DNA from: an uncultured Pelagibacteraceae bacterium
GTDB taxonomy: Bacteria; Pseudomonadota; Alphaproteobacteria; Pelagibacterales; Pelagibacteraceae
DNA length: 58,915 nucleotides
Direction: 5' to 3'
Assembly (NCBI GenBank): GCA_902574695.1
Contig: CACGON010000006.1
Span: 1 to 58,915, forward strand
This document shows positions 542 to 52,915 of this stretch, piece after piece. A program made the translations under genes and the position numbers. Positions within the stretch are counted from its first letter, which is position 1. Every line of letters starts with the position of its first letter. Under the pieces are notes generated by a model, which was not told where the DNA came from, searched no databases, and was given only the letters and a program-made list of their open reading frames with translations.

Positions 542-1171
542 ATGTCTCAAAAAGATGTCGGAAACAAAGTACCCATATATAAATTAAAAAAAACAGATGA
601 AGTAATGAGATATTACGATGAATGGGGAGAAGGAAATAAATATGATAAAGATATGGTTGATTGGAATTATACTGGTCCAAAAGAAACAACCGAAGTTTAT
701 ATAAAGTACGAGAAAAATAAAAATTCAAAAATTTATGATGCTGGATGCGGCACAGGCTTAGTGGGTGTTGAACTGAAAAAGCATGGTTTTTCTAATTTTT
801 ATGGAGCAGATTTATCACAAAAACTTTTAGACTTAGTACCAAAAGGTCTTTATCACAAATTAGATAAAGTTGATTTAAATAAGCCCATTAATGAAAAAGA
901 CAATTCTTTTGATGCTGTAATGTGTGTGGGTACTTTCACTTTTGGTCACGTTAAACCGCCTGCTTTAGATGAATTTATAAGAATTACAAAAGATAAAGGG
1001 TTAATTTGTTTCACAATAAATGAGGGAATTCACGAAGAATATGGTTTTGATAAAAAAATTGATCAATTAAACAAAGATAATAAATGGAAAGAGATTGAAT
1101 TTTTCAAATCAGATTATATTGCCAGTAAGGACGTAAACGCTTGGCTTGGGTTGTATGAAGTGATAAAATAA
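542..1171 (+). CDS. Class I SAM-dependent methyltransferase
   Basis: A 209-residue protein with a Rossmann-type methyltransferase fold. The SAM-binding glycine motif DAGCGTG is at residues 66-72, an acidic residue closing strand 2 is in the GAD at 88-90, and a strand 4 region lies around 'DAVMCVGTFTFGH'. The substrate is not evident. The ATG is two bases after the ureohydrolase stop, and the Rieske oxygenase starts three bases after its own stop, so it is probably cotranscribed with both. Small free-standing methyltransferases of this kind act on metabolites; a link to the neighbouring nitrogen and sulfur metabolites is inference only. Confidence 0.8.
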   Translation: MSQKDVGNKVPIYKLKKTDEVMRYYDEWGEGNKYDKDMVDWNYTGPKETTEVYIKYEKNKNSKIYDAGCGTGLVGVELKKHGFSNFYGADLSQKLLDLVPKGLYHKLDKVDLNKPINEKDNSFDAVMCVGTFTFGHVKPPALDEFIRITKDKGLICFTINEGIHEEYGFDKKIDQLNKDNKWKEIEFFKSDYIASKDVNAWLGLYEVIK

Positions 1172-1174
1172 GTC

Positions 1175-2350
1175 ATGTCTGATATTTATAATATTATAAA
1201 TAAAGAAAAACTTGATATTGTAAGTAAGCCCATTAAAGATGCTCACGGACTTCCAAATGAGTGTTACACTAGTAAAGAATATACTTTAATTGAAAGAAAA
1301 AAGTTATTTGAAGATAAATGGATGGTAATAGGGGTTGCAAGCTCTTTACCAAATGTTGGAGACGCAAAACCTGTAGATATTCTAGGTATGCCAATACTTC
1401 TTGTTAGAGGTAAAGATAAAAAAATAAGAGTCTTCCATAATGTTTGTAGCCATAGAGGACTTAAATTAGTAACTAAATCAGGAAATATTAAAAACGTTAT
1501 TAGATGTCCTTATCATTCTTGGTCTTATAATTTTGATGGTGAATTAGTTGCAACACCACATATTGGTGGTATGAATATCCACCAAACAAAAGATTTTGAA
1601 AGATCTAAAAGCAATCTTAAAGAAATACGATCATATATTTGGCTAGATTTAATAATGATTAATATAAATAATAATGAAATGTCTTTTGAAGAATATATTA
1701 AACCTCTCAGTGATCGATGGGAGGAATTTTGGCCAATAAAAGATAGAGAGCTTATCAACCACTCAAATGACTTTGGCTATTTTAAATTAAATGCAAATTG
1801 TAATTGGAAGTTTGCAATTGAAAATTATTGTGAAAGCTATCATTTGCCATGGGTACATCCAGGCTTAAATTCATATTCTAAAATAGAAGATCACTATCAT
1901 ATTCAGGGATTACCAAATAGGTTTGCTGGACAAGGAACAGTTGTTTATAATCCAAGATTTGAGGGAAAAGAAAAATTTCCGTGTTTTCCTAATTGGCCAA
2001 AAAATAAAGAAAATATTGCAGAGTATGTAGCTTTATTTCCAAATGTAATGCTTGGTATACATAAAGATCATTATTACGCTTATTGGTTAGAACCAATTAA
2101 CAATGAATTCACACTAGAACATATGGAATTGTATTATGTTGGAGAAGAAGCAGCTAATTCAAAAAAATTCGAGTCATTAAGAAAACAAAATCACAAACAA
2201 TGGGAAGATATTCAAAAAGAAGATGTTGATATTATACAAGGTATGCAAATTGGAAGAAACTCGCCGGTTTATAATGGTGGTAATTTTTCTCCAGTTATGG
2301 ATAATCCAACTCATCATTTTCATAAATGGGTAGTACAAAATTTAATTTAA
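1175..2350 (+). CDS. Rieske non-haem iron oxygenase, large (alpha) subunit
   Basis: A 391-residue ring-hydroxylating-type oxygenase. The Rieske [2Fe-2S] ligands are C91-x-H93 and C111-xx-H114. The mononuclear iron site is in the ENYCESYHLPWVHP segment, with H223 and H228 as likely ligands. This architecture is shared by aromatic-ring dioxygenases and by the monooxygenases that attack quaternary amines (choline monooxygenase, GbcA, CntA), so the substrate is open. No small (beta) subunit or dedicated reductase is adjacent. It sits between a methyltransferase and a DddP-like enzyme with gaps of 1-3 bases. In a window rich in methylated-amine and sulfonium genes, a demethylating or quaternary-amine role is a reasonable guess but not shown. 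Confidence 0.85.
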   Translation: MSDIYNIINKEKLDIVSKPIKDAHGLPNECYTSKEYTLIERKKLFEDKWMVIGVASSLPNVGDAKPVDILGMPILLVRGKDKKIRVFHNVCSHRGLKLVTKSGNIKNVIRCPYHSWSYNFDGELVATPHIGGMNIHQTKDFERSKSNLKEIRSYIWLDLIMININNNEMSFEEYIKPLSDRWEEFWPIKDRELINHSNDFGYFKLNANCNWKFAIENYCESYHLPWVHPGLNSYSKIEDHYHIQGLPNRFAGQGTVVYNPRFEGKEKFPCFPNWPKNKENIAEYVALFPNVMLGIHKDHYYAYWLEPINNEFTLEHMELYYVGEEAANSKKFESLRKQNHKQWEDIQKEDVDIIQGMQIGRNSPVYNGGNFSPVMDNPTHHFHKWVVQNLI

Positions 2351-2351
2351 A

Positions 2352-3587
2352 ATGAAATTTAAAAGAAAAATTGCTCCAGAAATAAAATCCTCACCAAAGT
2401 TTATTACAAAAAAAAGATTAAGAGAGGATGAAATTAATTTTAGTAAATTAAGATCATATCGACTAGATCGAGTTAAAAAAGAACTTGAAAAAAATAATTT
2501 AGAAGCTTGCATACTGTTTGATCCAGTAAATGTTCGATATGCATTGGATACAGTAAATATGAGTGTTTATAATATGCATAATCTGACTAGATATTGTTTT
2601 GTACCAGTTGATGGACCTACAATTTTATACGAATATTTTAACTGTGAAATTTTATCCAAAGATTTAAATTTAATTGATGAAATTAGACCTGCAATAACTT
2701 GGGATTATTTTAGTAATGGTGATCAAGCCAATGCACAATTAAAAAAATGGGTACATGAGATTGAAGATCTCTCAAAAAATTATTTTAAAAGTAAAAAAGT
2801 TGCCATTGATGTCATAAATGGACCAGCAGTAACAGCATTAAATAATGCAGGTATAAAAGTTGTAGATGCTAAACTTATTTTAGAACAAGCAAGAGTAATA
2901 AAATCAGCTGAGGAATTGAAATGCATGAAAGCAGCTCTAGAAGTTGCGGAAATAGGAGTTGCTAAAATGAGGGAAGAGATGAAAGCTGGCATGACAGAAG
3001 ATGAGCTTTGGTCTATTTTACATAAAACTAATATTGAACATGGGGGAGAGTGGATTGAATGTAGAATTCTTTCATCAGGCGAAAGAACTAATCCATGGAT
3101 GCAAGAGAGTAGTAATAAAGTAATTCAAAATAGTGAAATTGTATCCTTTGATACCGACATGGTTGGTCCCTACGGATATTGTGCAGATATATCGAGAGCT
3201 TTTGTTGTTGGACATAAATTTAATGATGAACAAAAAAAACTTTATTCAATGGCTATGGATCAAATAGATCATAATTTTAGATTAATTAAACCTGGAATGA
3301 CATTTAAAGAATTTGTAAAAAAATCTTGGGTGCTTCCAGAAGAGTATTATGGAAATAGATATTCATGTATGGTTCATGGAATTGGTTTATGTGATGAGTG
3401 GCCACAAATAAAATATCCAACTGATGGAGGCGAACAAGGTGGATCTTTTGAAAAAAATATGACAATTACTCTTGAGAGTTATATTGGAAAAGTTGGTGGC
3501 AAAGAAGGTGTTAAACTCGAGCAACAATATTTAGTTGGTCAAAATGGTTTAGAGCTGATGTCACATCATCCTTTAGAAAAAATTTAA
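2352..3587 (+). CDS. dddP: M24-family metalloenzyme, closely DddP-like (putative DMSP lyase)
   Basis: A 411-residue creatinase/prolidase-fold protein. All six metal ligands expected for DddP are present: D267, D269, D279, H342, E375 and E390. Their spacings (2, 10, 63, 33, 15) nearly match those I recall for Ruegeria DddP (2, 10, 64, 35, 15). The residue proposed as catalytic base in DddP (Asp six after the His ligand) is D348 in HGIGLCDEW, and the active-site Tyr five before that His is Y337. Segments such as GGEWIE and SFDTD also match DddP as I remember it. If the call is right it cleaves DMSP to DMS and acrylate in the cytoplasm. Related M24 paralogues with other substrates exist, so function is probable rather than certain. 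The gene symbol is tentative. An AcuI-like acrylyl-CoA reductase lies at 24475. Confidence 0.65.
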   Translation: MKFKRKIAPEIKSSPKFITKKRLREDEINFSKLRSYRLDRVKKELEKNNLEACILFDPVNVRYALDTVNMSVYNMHNLTRYCFVPVDGPTILYEYFNCEILSKDLNLIDEIRPAITWDYFSNGDQANAQLKKWVHEIEDLSKNYFKSKKVAIDVINGPAVTALNNAGIKVVDAKLILEQARVIKSAEELKCMKAALEVAEIGVAKMREEMKAGMTEDELWSILHKTNIEHGGEWIECRILSSGERTNPWMQESSNKVIQNSEIVSFDTDMVGPYGYCADISRAFVVGHKFNDEQKKLYSMAMDQIDHNFRLIKPGMTFKEFVKKSWVLPEEYYGNRYSCMVHGIGLCDEWPQIKYPTDGGEQGGSFEKNMTITLESYIGKVGGKEGVKLEQQYLVGQNGLELMSHHPLEKI

Positions 3588-4003
3588 TGAAAATTATTTT
3601 GATAATGGGTCTCCCGGGCGCAGGGAAAACGACTTTAGCAAACGAACTTGCACCAATGATTAAAGCTAAAAGATTAAATGCCGATGAAGTTAGGAAAGTT
3701 GCTGATGATTGGGATTTTTCTGAAGAAGGAAGAAAAAGACAATCTAAAAGAATGGCAGATTTTGCACTTAAGTTTAAAGAGGAGGGACATAATGTAGTTG
3801 CTGATTTTATTTGTCCAACACCTGATGCAAGAAATCTATTTCCTGCAGATTACATTATTTGGGTAGATACAATTAAACAAGGAAGGTTTGAAGACACTAA
3901 TCAAATGTTTGTTAAACCAGAAAAATTTAATTTTCATGTTACCTCACAAGATGCTAAGAGTTGGGCTACAAAAATATTAAAGGATTTAAAAAATGACTTA
4001 TAA
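3587..4003 (+). CDS. Small P-loop kinase, APS-kinase-like
   Basis: A 138-residue ATP-binding kinase. The Walker A motif GLPGAGKTT is at residues 8-16. RLNADEVRK near residue 33 and the 'ADFICPTPDAR' stretch near residue 73 resemble the Asp/Arg substrate region of adenylylsulfate kinase (CysC), although it is shorter than most CysC proteins (about 170-200). The start overlaps the preceding stop (TAATG) and its end overlaps the next gene by 11 bases, so it is translationally coupled on both sides. Its partner is a nucleotidyltransferase. No ATP-sulfurylase or sulfate-reduction genes are in view, so it is more likely to phosphorylate a metabolite alcohol than APS. Confidence 0.7.
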   Translation: MKIILIMGLPGAGKTTLANELAPMIKAKRLNADEVRKVADDWDFSEEGRKRQSKRMADFALKFKEEGHNVVADFICPTPDARNLFPADYIIWVDTIKQGRFEDTNQMFVKPEKFNFHVTSQDAKSWATKILKDLKNDL

Positions 4004-4367
4004 ATGGGATAACAAAAAACCAACAGCTCAAATGCTTGGAAGGTGGCAACCTTTCCATGATGGACACTACGCATTATTTAAAGAAATTATAAAAAAAACA
4101 GGCCAGGTTTGTATTCAAATAAGAGACGTACAAGGTGTTGACGATAATCCTTTTGATTTTGAGACAGTAAAAAAGAAAATTGAGGAAAGATTAAATCCAG
4201 AGTTCGGGGGAAGATTTAAAGTTATCTTAGTTCCAAATATTACTAATATTTGTTACGGAAGGGGAGTTGGATATAAAATTGAGGAAATAGTACTCTCTGA
4301 AGAAATTCAAAAAATTTCAGCTACAAAAATAAGAGCAAAAATGCGAGAGGATGGGGATTTAAAGTGA
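3993..4367 (+). CDS. Small nucleotidyltransferase (HxGH / ISxTxxR fold)
   Basis: A 124-residue cytidylyltransferase/adenylyltransferase-like protein. It has the nucleotide-binding motif H22-D-G-H25 within GRWQPFHDGH and the second motif ISATKIR at residues 108-114. Both are hallmarks of the HIGH nucleotidyltransferase superfamily, which includes NMN adenylyltransferase, PPAT, CTP:glycerol-3-phosphate cytidylyltransferase and ATP sulfurylase. It is too short for ATP sulfurylase. It overlaps the kinase by 11 bases and the following 2OG oxygenase by 4 bases. The kinase plus nucleotidyltransferase pairing suggests phosphorylation followed by NMP transfer to make an activated metabolite. The substrate is unknown. 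Confidence 0.7.
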   Translation: MTYKWDNKKPTAQMLGRWQPFHDGHYALFKEIIKKTGQVCIQIRDVQGVDDNPFDFETVKKKIEERLNPEFGGRFKVILVPNITNICYGRGVGYKIEEIVLSEEIQKISATKIRAKMREDGDLK

Positions 4368-5215
4368 ATGAAAGATTAAGATCTATTGTAGATTTAGATA
4401 AATACCCAATTCATGACTTAAATTCACCAATCATTAAAGGTCTAATTAAAAGATGCAAAAAAGAGCTAGATGAAAATAGCTGTTCAACTATTCCTAATTT
4501 TATATTACCAAAATCATTAAAAATCATGAATCAAGAGCTGGAGAAGCAGTTAGACGAAGTTTATATGTCTAACGAGAGTATAAACGCTTATTTATACGCT
4601 AAAGATGATCCATCATTACCTATTGATCATCCTAAACGGATATTTATGAATAGATATAACGGCTATCTTAACTCTAATTGTTTTTCTAAAAACTCTGAAA
4701 TGAAATATTTATATGAAACAGAGGAACTATTGAAATTTGTTTCTGCCTGTCTTGGCGTTTCACCAATTTATAGATGGGCAGACCCATTAGCCTGTCATGC
4801 ATATAATGTTATGAAACCAGACGGAATACTTCCATGGCATTTTGATAGTTGTGAATTCACATTAAGCCTAATGATACAAAAACCTGAAAATGGAGGAATA
4901 TTTGAATACTGTCCAAATATCAGGGAGCCAGGAAATGAAAATTTTGATGAGGTTAAAAAAGTTTTAGATGGAGATAGAGCAAGAGTTAAACAACTTAAAT
5001 TAGAACCTGGGGATCTTCAGATATTTAAAGGTAGATTTACTTTACATAGGGTAACAAAAATTGAGGGAAATAAATCAAGATATATGTGTATCCCAGCATA
5101 TGTTCTAGACCCTTGGAGAGTAAATACTCCTGAACACTCAAAAGCTATTTATGGCAAAGTGTTACCAATTCATTTAGAGAGAAACAACGCAAGGTCGGAT
5201 GGTTTAGCAGATTAA
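4364..5215 (+). CDS. 2-oxoglutarate/Fe(II)-dependent oxygenase-like protein
   Basis: A 283-residue protein with a double-stranded beta-helix iron site. The facial triad is predicted as H159-x-D161 (in PWHFDSCE) and distal H228, with the 2-oxoglutarate-binding Arg at about R239. An EPGD turn (LEPGDLQIFKG) precedes the distal His, as is common in the superfamily. The start is GTG, chosen because GTGA overlaps the stop of the nucleotidyltransferase by 4 bases and no better start is nearby. The substrate is unknown; its coupling to the kinase/nucleotidyltransferase pair suggests it acts on the same metabolite. It could hydroxylate or desaturate. Confidence 0.75.
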   Translation: MNERLRSIVDLDKYPIHDLNSPIIKGLIKRCKKELDENSCSTIPNFILPKSLKIMNQELEKQLDEVYMSNESINAYLYAKDDPSLPIDHPKRIFMNRYNGYLNSNCFSKNSEMKYLYETEELLKFVSACLGVSPIYRWADPLACHAYNVMKPDGILPWHFDSCEFTLSLMIQKPENGGIFEYCPNIREPGNENFDEVKKVLDGDRARVKQLKLEPGDLQIFKGRFTLHRVTKIEGNKSRYMCIPAYVLDPWRVNTPEHSKAIYGKVLPIHLERNNARSDGLAD

Positions 5216-49394: not shown

Positions 49395-50189
49395 ATGATT
49401 ACAACTAATCCATTTTCTATTCTTTCAGAAACAGTGCCATCGTTGATACTACAGGTATTTGTTTTGATTATGGTTGGACTAGTAGTTATAGGGACTCTCA
49501 TAGATATAATTCACAAAAAAAATGTTAAGTATTTTTTTAATAATGCTAAAAAAGCAAAAAAAAATGCAACTAGAGAATTAGGAACAGGTGAACGGATTGC
49601 AATAATTGGTAAAACAATTGTTCATGATATCGGAACAACAGCAGAGCTAGGAATGGGTAAAAGAAGAATTGCTCACGTTTTAGGAATGTATGGAACAATC
49701 TTATTTTGGGCAGGCTCAGCTGTTATGATTTTTTGTTACTCATCTGTAAATGCAGATACACCAAATTTCTGGCCTGCTATTTGGCACATTGGTGCAATTA
49801 TGACATGTGTTGGTGGTTTTTGGTTTTGGTTTTTTTTAAGAGTAGATGTTGCAGCTGAGGCACATTCAGTTTTTAGAATCATCAAAGCAGATTTATTTGT
49901 TCTTGCACTTCTTGCATCCTCTTTATTTGGATTATTATGGTCATTTTTCCAGTCAAAAGGGATTTTTGGATGGGACACTTTATTTCTAGTTCTATTTGCA
50001 ATTTCAAATATAGTTCTTTTTGGGGGGGTATATTGGTCTAAATTTGCTCACATGTTTTATAAACCTGGAGCAGCTTTACAAAAAAACCTGGCAGAAGCAG
50101 ATGGCTCAAGAGATAACTTACCAGCACCTGCAGATGCACCTGAACAGTTTGGGTTAGGTATTAAAAGAGAACAACCTAAACATTATTAA
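49395..50189 (+). CDS. aprM: AprM-like membrane anchor for APS reductase
   Basis: A 264-residue membrane protein with five or six segments; it shares the NarI/HdrE-like fold of QmoC-type cytochrome subunits (RIAIIGKTIVHDIGTTAELG, VLGMYGTILFWAGSAVMIF). It is directly upstream of aprB and aprA, and in SAR11 and other Apr-carrying lineages AprM is the suggested membrane electron connection. Its role is to link AprBA to the quinone pool. Confidence 0.85.
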   Translation: MITTNPFSILSETVPSLILQVFVLIMVGLVVIGTLIDIIHKKNVKYFFNNAKKAKKNATRELGTGERIAIIGKTIVHDIGTTAELGMGKRRIAHVLGMYGTILFWAGSAVMIFCYSSVNADTPNFWPAIWHIGAIMTCVGGFWFWFFLRVDVAAEAHSVFRIIKADLFVLALLASSLFGLLWSFFQSKGIFGWDTLFLVLFAISNIVLFGGVYWSKFAHMFYKPGAALQKNLAEADGSRDNLPAPADAPEQFGLGIKREQPKHY

Positions 50190-50220: not shown

Positions 50221-50691
50221 ATGTCAACTTTTGTATATATGACTAGATGTGATGGATGTGGACATTGTGTAGATATTTGTCCCTCAGACATCATGCACAT
50301 TGATGAAACAATTAGAAGAGCAAAAAATATAGAGCCAAATTTTTGTTGGGAGTGTTATTCGTGTGTGAAGGCTTGTCCTAACCATGCAATAGATGTCAGA
50401 GGTTATGCAGACTTTGCCCCGATGGGTCATAGTGTGAGAGTAAGAAGAGAAGAAGAAAAAGGAACAATCTCTTGGAGAATAAAATTTAGAAATGGAACTG
50501 AAAAAAATTTCGTTTCACCAATTACAACAAAACCTTGGGGAAAATTTATACCAAAACTTGCAGAGGCAGACACACCAAATCAAGGTGAGATCAATTCACA
50601 AATACTTTATAACGAGCCACATGGATTAAATACAAACAAAGATTTACCAAAAGTTGATAAGAGCGCATTTAAAAAAGGAGTCTACTATTAA
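50221..50691 (+). CDS. aprB: Adenylylsulfate reductase beta subunit
   Basis: A 156-residue protein with two 4Fe-4S clusters: CDGCGHCVDICPSDIMHID near residue 10 and CWECYSCVKACPNHAIDVRG near residue 42. The C-terminal tail that wraps around AprA is present. It carries electrons between AprA and the membrane anchor. Its stop overlaps the aprA start (TAATG). In this lineage AprBA is considered to work in the sulfite-oxidising direction. Confidence 0.95.
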   Translation: MSTFVYMTRCDGCGHCVDICPSDIMHIDETIRRAKNIEPNFCWECYSCVKACPNHAIDVRGYADFAPMGHSVRVRREEEKGTISWRIKFRNGTEKNFVSPITTKPWGKFIPKLAEADTPNQGEINSQILYNEPHGLNTNKDLPKVDKSAFKKGVYY

Positions 50692-52550
50692 TGCCAAAAT
50701 CAAAAACAGTTTACGAAGAATGTGATGTTCTTGTTGTTGGCGGAGGTATGGCAGGAACTGGTGCAACGTTTGAAGCTAGACACTGGGGAAGAGATTTAAA
50801 AATAATTTGTGTAGAAAAAGCAAACATCGATAGAAGTGGAGCAGTTGCTCAAGGATTGTATGCTATTAACTGCTATATGGGCATGCAGTGGAATGAAAAT
50901 CAGCCTGAAGATCATGTAAGGTATGCAAGAAATGATTTAATGGGTCTTGTAAGGGAAGATTTAGGTTACGATATGGCTCGTCATGTTGACTCAACAGTTC
51001 ATATGTTTGATGAGTGGGGTTTGCCAATGATGAAAAATAAAGAAACGGGCAGATATCAAAGAGAAGGTAAATGGCAAATAATGATCCATGGCGAAAGCTA
51101 CAAACCAATTGTTGCAGAAGCTGCAAAAAAATCAGCAGATAAAATTTATAATAGAATAATGGTAACTCATTTATTAATGGATGAGACTAAAGAAAATAGA
51201 GTAGGCGGCGCAGTAGGATTTAATATGAGAACTGGTGATTATCATGTTTTTAGATCAAAAACAGTAATAGTAGCAGCAGGTGGAGCGTCTCATATATTTA
51301 AACCAAGAGCAGTTGGAGAAGGAATGGGTAGAACATGGTATGCGCCATGGTCTAATGGATCAGCATACGCATTGCCAATTGCGGCTGGAGCAAAGATGAC
51401 TCAAATGGAAAACAGAATTGTTTTATGTAGATTTAAAGATGGGTATGGTCCAGTTGGAGCTTATTTTTTACATTTAAAAACATATACTCAAAATGCAAAT
51501 GGGGAAAATTATGAAAAAAAATGGTACAACCAAACAAAAGAATTAGTTGGTGAATATATCGATCATCATCCAACACCAACATGTTTAAGAAACCATGCAT
51601 TTGTTCAAGAGGTAATGTCTGGTAATGGCCCTATTCACATGGTTACGAAAGAAGCTTTTCAGGATCCACATTTAGAAACTGTTGGATGGGAAAACTTTTT
51701 AGGAATGACGGTAGGCCAAGCTGTAGTTTGGGCCTCTCAAAATATTGATCCAAAATATACCAATCCAGAATTAACTACGTCCGAGCCATACGTAATGGGT
51801 TCTCATGCAACTTGTTCAGGAGCATGGGTAAGTGGACCAGAAGATATCTCACCACCTGAATATTTTTGGGGCTACAATAGAATGACAACTGTTGAAGGAC
51901 TTTTTGGAGCTGGAGATACTGTTGGTGGAAGTGCTCATAAATTTTCATCAGGTTCTTTCACTGAAGGAAGATTAGCTGCAAAAGCAGCTGTAAAATATAT
52001 TGAAGAGCAAAAAGCCAAAGACTTAAAAGTGTCAGATAAACAATGTGAAGATTTTAGAGAAGTTATTTATAAGCCATTAGATAATTATACTATTGGAAGA
52101 AATGAGATCACAGGTGGAACTGTTTCACCTAGTTATATTTCTCCAATACAAGGTCTACAGAGATTACAGAAAATTATGGACGAATATGTGGGTGGTATTT
52201 CAGTAAACTATATGACTAATGAAAATCTTCTTAAAAAAGGACTTGAATTACTAGATTGGCTGACTGAGGATTTAGAAAACGTAGGTGCTGAAGATTATCA
52301 CCAGTTAATGAGAGCTTGGGAACTGAAACATAGAACACTAACTTCACAATGTGTAACTGAACATACCCTCTTTAGAAAAGAAACACGTTGGCCAGGTTAT
52401 TACTACAGAGGTGATTATATGAAGCTTGATGACGAAAATTGGCATTGTCTAACTGTTTCAAGAAGAGATCCTAAGACAGGAAAGTTTACAATGGAGAAAC
52501 AACCTGTTTATCATATAATTGACGAAAAAGAGAAAAAGCAAGCTTCTTAA
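50691..52550 (+). CDS. aprA: Adenylylsulfate reductase alpha subunit
   Basis: A 619-residue FAD protein. The FAD motif is CDVLVVGGGMAGTGATFEA at about residues 10-28; SGAVAQGLYAINCYMG, HGESYKPIVAEAAKK and the active-site area FKDGYGPVGAYFL with RNHAFVQEV are also visible. It interconverts APS with sulfite plus AMP. Next to sulfonate-degradation genes that release sulfite it should run oxidatively. It starts inside the aprB stop. Confidence 0.95.
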   Translation: MPKSKTVYEECDVLVVGGGMAGTGATFEARHWGRDLKIICVEKANIDRSGAVAQGLYAINCYMGMQWNENQPEDHVRYARNDLMGLVREDLGYDMARHVDSTVHMFDEWGLPMMKNKETGRYQREGKWQIMIHGESYKPIVAEAAKKSADKIYNRIMVTHLLMDETKENRVGGAVGFNMRTGDYHVFRSKTVIVAAGGASHIFKPRAVGEGMGRTWYAPWSNGSAYALPIAAGAKMTQMENRIVLCRFKDGYGPVGAYFLHLKTYTQNANGENYEKKWYNQTKELVGEYIDHHPTPTCLRNHAFVQEVMSGNGPIHMVTKEAFQDPHLETVGWENFLGMTVGQAVVWASQNIDPKYTNPELTTSEPYVMGSHATCSGAWVSGPEDISPPEYFWGYNRMTTVEGLFGAGDTVGGSAHKFSSGSFTEGRLAAKAAVKYIEEQKAKDLKVSDKQCEDFREVIYKPLDNYTIGRNEITGGTVSPSYISPIQGLQRLQKIMDEYVGGISVNYMTNENLLKKGLELLDWLTEDLENVGAEDYHQLMRAWELKHRTLTSQCVTEHTLFRKETRWPGYYYRGDYMKLDDENWHCLTVSRRDPKTGKFTMEKQPVYHIIDEKEKKQAS

Positions 52551-52564
52551 TTTAATTATTTACA

Positions 52565-52915
52565 ATGAGTTTAATTGAAAAGTCAGATGAGGATATCATC
52601 AAGCTAGCTGATCCAATTTGGAATAATCTAGTTAAATCATCAAATATTAAAGATTATGGTGGGTTTACCAAAGATTTCTCATCACAAATGCTTTATGGAG
52701 CTAATGAGGTTGAGCTCGGTAAGCAATGGGCAAATAATGAACTTATATCAAGTTTAAAAGAAAATTGTGAACCTATGGGTTGTCTTAGAAGGGGCGCCTA
52801 TGTAACTGTAATTTATAAACAAAATAGCTCAAAGATTCCTGGAGATTTTATAGGTAGACTTGTTTTAGGCGAAGAGGGTGGAGAGGTTAAGGTCTTTGGA
52901 GCTACAATATTTTAA
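52565..52915 (+). CDS. 116-residue protein of unknown function in apr cluster
   Basis: The protein begins MSLIEKSDEDIIKLADPIWN and has two Cys (CEPMGCLRRGAYVTV) in a middle segment, with a C-terminal beta-rich part ending VKVFGATIF. There is no signal peptide or membrane segment. It lies 14 bases after aprA, so it is probably cotranscribed with it. No family recognised. The GCLRRGAYVTV motif near its centre is the best handle for a search. Confidence 0.7.
   Translation: MSLIEKSDEDIIKLADPIWNNLVKSSNIKDYGGFTKDFSSQMLYGANEVELGKQWANNELISSLKENCEPMGCLRRGAYVTVIYKQNSSKIPGDFIGRLVLGEEGGEVKVFGATIF

Follow-up and report, generated by a model that had tools for sequence, protein, structure and literature searches.

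An important question raised by the genome of an uncultured member of the Pelagibacteraceae, i.e. of the SAR11 bacteria that are among the ocean's most abundant cells, is what is activated by the products of two very small, overlapping genes, which encode a P-loop kinase resembling adenylyl-sulfate (APS) kinases and a minimal nucleotidyltransferase. The window analysed here, a stretch of 58,915 nucleotides, is one whole contig (C6; CACGON010000006.1 of assembly GCA_902574695.1) of this 1.04-Mb genome (G000), which is 88% complete. An initial annotation had taken the two genes, together with a third for an oxygenase, as a single pathway. Our data instead strongly suggest a miniature ATP sulfurylase of a third type, which is paired with an APS kinase and is apparently unrecognised. 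In this pair, the nucleotidyltransferase is very likely a minimal ATP sulfurylase on a scaffold like that of nicotinamide-mononucleotide adenylyltransferases (NMNATs), which together with the APS kinase serves both the synthesis of 3'-phosphoadenylyl sulfate (PAPS) and the adenylyl-sulfate reductase AprBA. The three genes are arranged as follows:

3587..4003, + strand: APS-kinase-like P-loop kinase, 138 amino acids (aa), ATG start; PF01583 at 42.9 bits

3993..4367, + strand: minimal HxGH nucleotidyltransferase, 124 aa, ATG start; predicted fold of NMNATs and phosphopantetheine adenylyltransferases (PPATs), sulfur-gene contexts of relatives

4364..5215, + strand: HalD-like Fe(II)/2-oxoglutarate oxygenase, 283 aa, GTG start; PF23169 at 46.5 bits

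These open reading frames and their overlaps, which amount to 11 bases between the kinase and nucleotidyltransferase genes and to 4 bases between the latter and the oxygenase gene, are as the initial annotation had given them, and its descriptions of the proteins proved apt as well. The kinase scores above the gathering cut-off of PF01583 (21.1 bits), in line with the predicted fold of a viral relative, the nucleotidyltransferase carries the stretches GRWQPFHDGH...ISATKIR and comes slightly below the cut-off of CTP_transf_like PF01467 (19.9 versus 21 bits), and the oxygenase has its H-x-D at the metal site along with a PF23169 match.

What speaks most directly to the substrate is the genomic company that the nucleotidyltransferase keeps. 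Sulfate activation had been judged unlikely because the transferase seemed too short, yet the same short protein is encoded within a cysG-cysI-cysH operon, next to aprA-aprB-aprM and adjacent to sulfotransferase genes, and because of these neighbours sulfate is its most likely substrate. In an alphaproteobacterial family (f24), locus L209 (genome G253) contains, in this order, genes for a SUMT/CysG-type methyltransferase (uroporphyrinogen-III methyltransferase, E 4e-83), the sulfite reductase hemoprotein CysI (E 6e-213), the PAPS reductase CysH (E 2e-75), a DUF2061 protein, the kinase and the nucleotidyltransferase. The pair stands where cysDNC would be expected; locus L208 (G023) has the same gene order by sequence reading, and a search of four f24 genomes (68-89% complete) detected no CysD. 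In L213 (G414), a nucleotidyltransferase gene without a kinase gene lies directly upstream of aprM-aprB-aprA, and L210 and L211 (family f174), as read from the sequence, have the pair in convergent orientation with a gene for a 116-aa protein and aprA-aprB-aprM, with AprA searched for and found in both. Taken together, group g279 and family f174 of the SAR11 order have AprA in 38 of 41 nucleotidyltransferase-positive genomes, with a distance of 366-1421 bp between the two genes in 37 of these 38 and separate contigs in the 38th. As for sulfotransferases, the pair in L207 (G381, an alphaproteobacterium assembled as a single contig, without a CysD match) has a divergently oriented neighbour that encodes a tetratricopeptide-repeat (TPR) sulfotransferase (E 2e-40), and in G186, which has a sub-cut-off CysD match, a distance of 2.7 kb separates a Sulfotransfer_3 gene from a gene in which kinase and nucleotidyltransferase are fused. 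The genome of the window has three Sulfotransfer_3 (PF13469) matches over the cut-off and, at 88% completeness, no CysD or Sat match. The genomic context of the nucleotidyltransferase, i.e. its place in cys and apr operons, where it would stand in for CysDN, is that of sulfate activation.

The same association emerges at the scale of the SAR11 order. Among 147 genomes, an identical draw for each search, the nucleotidyltransferase was found in 110, AprA in 108, the kinase in 100, Sulfotransfer_3 in 88, CysD in nine and Sat in six. AprA is present in 101 of the 110 nucleotidyltransferase-positive genomes and in seven of the 37 negative ones (Fisher p 8e-17), and CysD in none of the former and nine of the latter (Fisher p 2e-6), both p values being uncorrected for relatedness and ignoring draft incompleteness. 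Within family f174, counted over the 47 genomes named in the search outputs, from which genomes without any match may be missing, the corresponding figures are 32/33 versus 0/14 for AprA and 0/33 versus 7/14 for CysD. The kinase accompanies the nucleotidyltransferase in 99 of 110 genomes. AprA was found in 92 of these 99 and Sulfotransfer_3 in 65; the 11 kinase-less genomes have AprA in nine cases and Sulfotransfer_3 in none. By these counts the occurrence of the nucleotidyltransferase tracks that of AprA, and every nucleotidyltransferase-positive genome lacking the kinase is also one in which Sulfotransfer_3 was not found. Farther afield, a class-wide sample yielded the nucleotidyltransferase in 22 of 385 genomes at E 1e-4, 12 of these matches reaching E 1e-30 or better and the remainder being much weaker, and a phylum-wide sample in two of 398 genomes, both already known.

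A second line of evidence comes from viruses. The first half of the phage protein family phrog_10255 ("kinase") matches the window kinase (E 1e-29) and its second half the nucleotidyltransferase (E 2e-24), so in phages the pair is one protein; tblastn also found the pair in five phage records from Stenotrophomonas, Xanthomonas and Clavibacter (42-47% identity). A scan of IMG/VR gave, among 600 stretches listed, at least 593 candidate relatives of the nucleotidyltransferase in viral contigs, the best 80 of which (L111-L190) underlie the viral counts given here. The kinase is present in 79 of these loci and fused to the nucleotidyltransferase in 19 of the 80; the single locus without it, L111, is a 6-kb contig with 91% identity that may be cellular rather than viral. 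Non-viral fusions occur in four alphaproteobacteria (G384, G186, G115 and G470). The order in the viral fusions is kinase followed by nucleotidyltransferase, as in human PAPSS1. The commonest viral companion is a sulfotransferase family seen in 36 of 80 loci (one member checked against Pfam, where it matches Sulfotransfer_3 at E 1e-11 and Sulfotransfer_1, the rest assigned by homology), which lies directly upstream of the pair in 28 loci and two genes upstream in seven. Since clustering at 50% identity divides these sulfotransferases into 11 groups and the loci average 14.3 picked genes, this neighbourhood does not represent one virus seen repeatedly. Like PAPSS1/2 and the SAT/APS kinase of Aquifex, the system would place both roles, that of an APS kinase and that of a sulfurylase of the HxGH superfamily, on one chain or in overlapping genes, with the kinase first in viral fusions as in PAPSS1; it differs in a total of about 260 aa against 630 in PAPSS1, and in a sulfurylase part that consists of just one NMNAT-like domain (about 115 aa) and cannot be recognised as Sat. 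The window itself has two separate overlapping genes and so does not encode a bifunctional PAPS synthetase in the strict sense of both domains on one chain.

From this genomic context, i.e. the linkage, the fusions, the co-occurrence and the absence of CysD, together with predicted folds, we infer substrates, reaction and direction. The nucleotidyltransferase would catalyse ATP + sulfate = APS + PPi (pyrophosphate) in place of Sat and CysDN, as suggested by its position in the f24 operon, its linkage to AprBA and the missing CysD, and the kinase is proposed to be an APS kinase forming PAPS (APS + ATP -> PAPS + ADP), for which its family, its fold, the fusions and the sulfotransferase neighbours argue. 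In the f24 operon, both steps would run forward into CysH and CysI. In SAR11, by contrast, the first step would probably run mainly in reverse behind AprBA, which would convert sulfite from organosulfur breakdown and AMP to APS, whereupon APS + PPi -> ATP + sulfate would yield ATP; this direction is suggested by the role in sulfite removal that passages of two papers assign to AprBA in SAR11 (PMC5069961, PMC12636525). PAPS made by the kinase would feed sulfotransferases, and in viruses the pair would constitute a miniature PAPS synthetase, often as a single polypeptide. That these proteins of about 120 residues form a third class of ATP sulfurylase, which in most SAR11 closes the AprBA pathway and in many viruses is part of an often-fused PAPS synthetase feeding viral sulfotransferases, appears likely.

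A variant of this scheme would make the nucleotidyltransferase an adenylylsulfate:phosphate adenylyltransferase, which acts on APS with ADP/phosphate in place of ATP/pyrophosphate, so that only the direction linked to AprBA would operate in the cell. It would fit the aprA linkage and the kinase-free genomes equally well. However, both the operon with cysH and cysI and the context of PAPS formation call for the forward reaction, and HxGH and ISxTxIR are motifs of nucleoside triphosphate transferases that release pyrophosphate, which counts against this variant; we consider it highly improbable.

For the window itself, it had been noted that no reductive sulfate genes are present. This is true of the immediate surroundings of the trio, but the contig does carry genes for AprB and AprA, at a distance of 46 kb:

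49395..50189, + strand: AprM-like membrane protein, 264 aa; 70% identical to the open reading frame between the nucleotidyltransferase and aprB genes of L213

50221..50691, + strand: AprB, adenylyl-sulfate reductase beta subunit; TIGR02060 at 191.6 bits (cut-off 135.65)

50691..52550, + strand: AprA, adenylyl-sulfate reductase alpha subunit; TIGR02061 at 1000.8 bits (cut-off 641.75)

52565..52915, + strand: 116-aa protein directly after aprA; 67% identical to the open reading frame after aprA in L213, no Pfam match

The first of these proteins has no family match of its own and is called AprM-like here.

How far does the oxygenase belong to this system? That kinase, nucleotidyltransferase and oxygenase respectively phosphorylate, activate and oxidise one organic metabolite, as the initial annotation had it, is suggested by their overlap in the window. 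Among public genomes, the 80 best matches to the window nucleotidyltransferase all come from Pelagibacteraceae/Pelagibacter (SAR11) genomes (91-98% identity). Of 80 SAR11 loci, 70 were found to contain the kinase, whose gene adjoins that of the nucleotidyltransferase in 51 cases and is separated from it by 2.3-4.6 kb in the other 19. The oxygenase, counted in the 77 loci with at least 1.2 kb of downstream sequence, is present in 33 and absent in 44; where it occurs, it directly follows the nucleotidyltransferase (34/34, all 80 loci counted). The annotation had itself named a failure of the trio to stay together as the finding that would speak against it, and for the oxygenase this is what the SAR11 loci reveal. 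Moreover, the pair persists among sulfur genes without such an oxygenase alongside. Because it is absent from 44 of 77 loci, the oxygenase is an optional neighbour outside the conserved unit and the proposed mechanism, and a single pathway of three genes, rejected on these counts, has very little probability left. The annotation was right, on the other hand, that kinase and nucleotidyltransferase are functionally coupled, as follows from their overlapping genes, their fusions in viruses and other alphaproteobacteria and their co-occurrence. The oxygenase itself matches the HalD family (PF23169, cut-off 26 bits), yet direct reading gives HFD at the metal site, whereas halogenases of the HalD/BesD family have HxG in place of the HxD carboxylate. 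By its sequence it would thus be a hydroxylase rather than a halogenase.

In all five loci read in which kinase and nucleotidyltransferase genes are set apart (L002 3410-7960, L009 5720-7960, L012 2205-6277, L014 5735-7969 and L019 3837-7957), the gap holds one or two genes for proteins of about 590-770 aa that by reading resemble secreted or outer-membrane surface proteins, so that a pair of genes that overlap in other loci is split.

The kinase half of the proposal is also reflected in structure prediction. A 259-aa viral fusion (L120) was modelled confidently from a 56-row alignment of kinase plus nucleotidyltransferase, with a mean predicted local distance difference test score (pLDDT) of 92.8 and a predicted template modelling score (pTM) of 0.85. 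With the kinase half of this model, the first 18 rows of a Foldseek search are APS kinases or PAPS synthetases (best E 1.9e-6), and in VIA-align the first 28 rows all bear an APS kinase, followed by a gluconate kinase (Z 16.1); 139 residues align with 1m8p (Z 18.6, root-mean-square deviation (rmsd) 1.9), whose matched C-terminal domain is APS-kinase-like. The D, R, F and R of the APS-binding Arg/Phe motif are invariant across 10 aligned sequences. With CysC the kinase shares the P-loop, D-x-V-R (as NADEVR, against DGDNIR in CysC), FS-x-x-x-R, the fold and a PF01583 score above cut-off. It differs in a shorter C-terminal part, in a TIGR00455 score short of the cut-off, and in DFSxxGRxRQ at the position of GFSxxDRxEN in CysC, although three fused alphaproteobacterial proteins (L203-L205) retain LGFSxxDRIEQ there.

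Several results weigh against the assignment, beginning with the family relationships of the two proteins. The best NCBIfam matches of the kinase are adenylyl-sulfate kinases, but all are under the equivalog cut-off, TIGR00455 for example at 34.7 bits against 138.7. The modelled structure of the nucleotidyltransferase (61-row alignment, pLDDT 92.4) has its closest folds not in Sat but in NMNATs and PPATs (Foldseek, 1ej2, E 7e-5); VIA-align gives the PPAT 5h16 (Z 11.8, rmsd 2.6, 113 residues) and the NMNAT 4yp6 (Z 10.9), which are tied within 1. The nearest proteins in sequence are NadM-type NMNATs, chiefly over the N-terminal half (1f9a, E 3e-10). When aligned by hhalign with two Sat proteins of the order, only the ISATKIR stretch is paired, at a probability of 2.3%.

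We therefore do not file the nucleotidyltransferase as a member of the Sat/Met3 family. Membership was rejected on this alignment and on the lack of any PF01747 match at E 0.5 in the window protein; 17 of 61 relatives match this family weakly (best E 0.002). Sat chains are also absent from the 50 rows shown of the Foldseek and VIA-align searches, which carries no weight as proof, and CysD (TIGR02039) is not among the NCBIfam matches of the window protein up to E 1. Very probably, however, the nucleotidyltransferase does the same job as Sat, with which it has the proposed reaction and the ISxTxIR motif in common, both belonging to one nucleotidyltransferase superfamily; set against the two Sat proteins of the order, it is only about a third as long and has neither the HTRNVPH nor the GRDHAG motif. 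With CysD/CysN it would share the reaction and the operon position without detected homology to CysD. Residues invariant over 61 relatives include R17, H22, H25, R44, N52, R90, Y94 and the I-S-A-T-x-I-R ending in R114. A YGRxVGY motif shortly precedes ISATKIR, and it is our guess from the sequence that it could be the counterpart of the GRDHAG loop of Sat.

These likenesses are what an involvement in NAD metabolism would build on, in which a nicotinamide-riboside kinase and an NMNAT (as in NadR) would serve NAD synthesis or repair and, in phages, perhaps counter-defence. NMNATs are indeed the closest matches of the nucleotidyltransferase in sequence and in Foldseek, NadR matches the kinase weakly (E 0.0096), and in phage Bhz60 a NADAR-annotated gene precedes the fused gene, a neighbour that would fit an NAD or ADP-ribose role and is thus a further point against sulfate. 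The NMNAT models, however, cover the N-terminal half only and stay far under their cut-offs (PRK01153 28.1 versus 127 bits, TIGR01527 24.2 versus 181.2 bits). With NadM-type NMNATs, the protein has the GRxQPxHxGH half and the fold in common, but its stretch from there to ISxTxIR is shorter and its gene contexts are different. The kinase fold ranks with APS kinases, and an NAD route accounts neither for the cysG-cysI-cysH operon and the missing CysD nor for the linkage to aprA and the adjacent sulfotransferases, such that we give it only a slight chance. A fused coenzyme A synthase, i.e. a PPAT with a dephospho-CoA or pantothenate kinase, has the best VIA-align matches in its favour, but with 11-18% identity to the PPAT chains in the rows shown, the APS-kinase fold of the kinase and the same unexplained sulfur contexts, it is exceedingly unlikely, and both NadR-like and CoA-synthase-like pairs were rejected on the APS-kinase fold and the sulfur contexts.

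Further points against an ATP sulfurylase lie in its distribution. AprA occurs without a detected nucleotidyltransferase in seven genomes of the order, five nucleotidyltransferase-positive genomes also carry Sat, and 15 have Sulfotransfer_3 with nucleotidyltransferase, CysD and Sat all undetected. Order-wide, there is no association between the nucleotidyltransferase and Sulfotransfer_3 (65/110 versus 23/37). In the genus of the window, the pair and aprA are 46 kb (window), about 47 kb (G207) and 390 kb (G391) apart. Among the viral loci, the sulfotransferase family searched for was not seen in 44 of 80. In 41 of these 44, 134 genes lie within two genes of the pair; 96 of them were scanned against Pfam, the others being omitted by eye, mainly as near-duplicates, and no sulfotransferase is among the 25 families shown of 40.

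Sat-type ATP sulfurylases are found in G404, G460, G468, G481, G433 and G407. The Sat proteins of G468 and G481 (L201 and L202) are about 350 aa long and contain HTRNVPH as well as GRDHAG; 1.6 kb from Sat, G481 has a Sulfotransfer_3 match that is below the cut-off. In another single-contig genome, the match to the nucleotidyltransferase (G297:C1:283955-284301) is split over two open frames, possibly due to a frameshift, with a full-length kinase match just upstream.

As far as we know, the pair would be unusually small for a sulfate-activating system. If the assignment is true, it completes the pathway by which SAR11 would turn sulfite from organosulfur compounds into sulfate with a gain of ATP, i.e. 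a substrate-level phosphorylation, explains a possible PAPS supply for sulfation in SAR11 and some viruses, and provides a partner for a kinase published as a stand-alone cysC. The idea of a possible new activation pathway has held in so far as the system does look unrecognised: the parts of the open-licence literature consulted contain no recognised account of a minimal or NMNAT-like ATP sulfurylase, of such a viral PAPS synthetase or of the missing SAR11 ATP sulfurylase. According to passages of one study, P. ubique has AprBA and lacks cysDNCHIJ and sat, yet of the seven strains in its Table 3 the same five are credited with both cysC and aprA, two with cysN and HIMB59 alone with cysD (PMC5069961); this published SAR11 cysC is probably the kinase described here. 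An excerpt of another states that ATP sulfurylase is missing from most SAR11 (PMC10356861). Pelagibacter AprBA has been modelled in a paper whose passages seen here are silent on its sulfurylase (PMC2211403), and annotations of viral cysC, cysD and cysH from Lake Baikal appear in the part seen of a further one (PMC8066274).

The surroundings of the trio consist of an arginase-family gene and genes for a methyltransferase, a Rieske oxygenase and a DddP-like M24 protein upstream, and of a GFA-family gene and an enoyl-CoA hydratase gene downstream. The methyltransferase, the GbcA-like Rieske oxygenase and the M24 gene directly precede the kinase gene (542-3587), have counterparts in 51, 64 and 32 of the 80 SAR11 loci, respectively, and are perhaps a separate catabolic module. 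A single match to PF01507 (PAPS_reduct) in the window's genome (27.2 versus 22.5 bits, in a 523-aa frame) is uninformative, as this family was matched in 14 of 14 control genomes.

In the f24 operon, the DUF2061 small membrane protein (L209 8526-8798) lies beside the pair, and relatives occur in seven viral loci (L128, L169, L171, L174, L177, L179 and L184; checked against Pfam on the protein of L177 only); it is perhaps a sulfate-related membrane partner. The fused gene of phage Bhz60 overlaps the end of the NADAR-annotated gene by 8 bases (L083 6559-7735), with annotations of a MazG-like pyrophosphatase and a cysteine dioxygenase upstream, and L084 and L085 have a gene of the same size at the same position. 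Finally, small 2OG-Fe(II) oxygenases recur in the viral loci: of the 80, 33 have a member of one cluster and 30 a member of a second. The representatives of these clusters match PF13640 and PF13759, i.e. families other than that of the window oxygenase.

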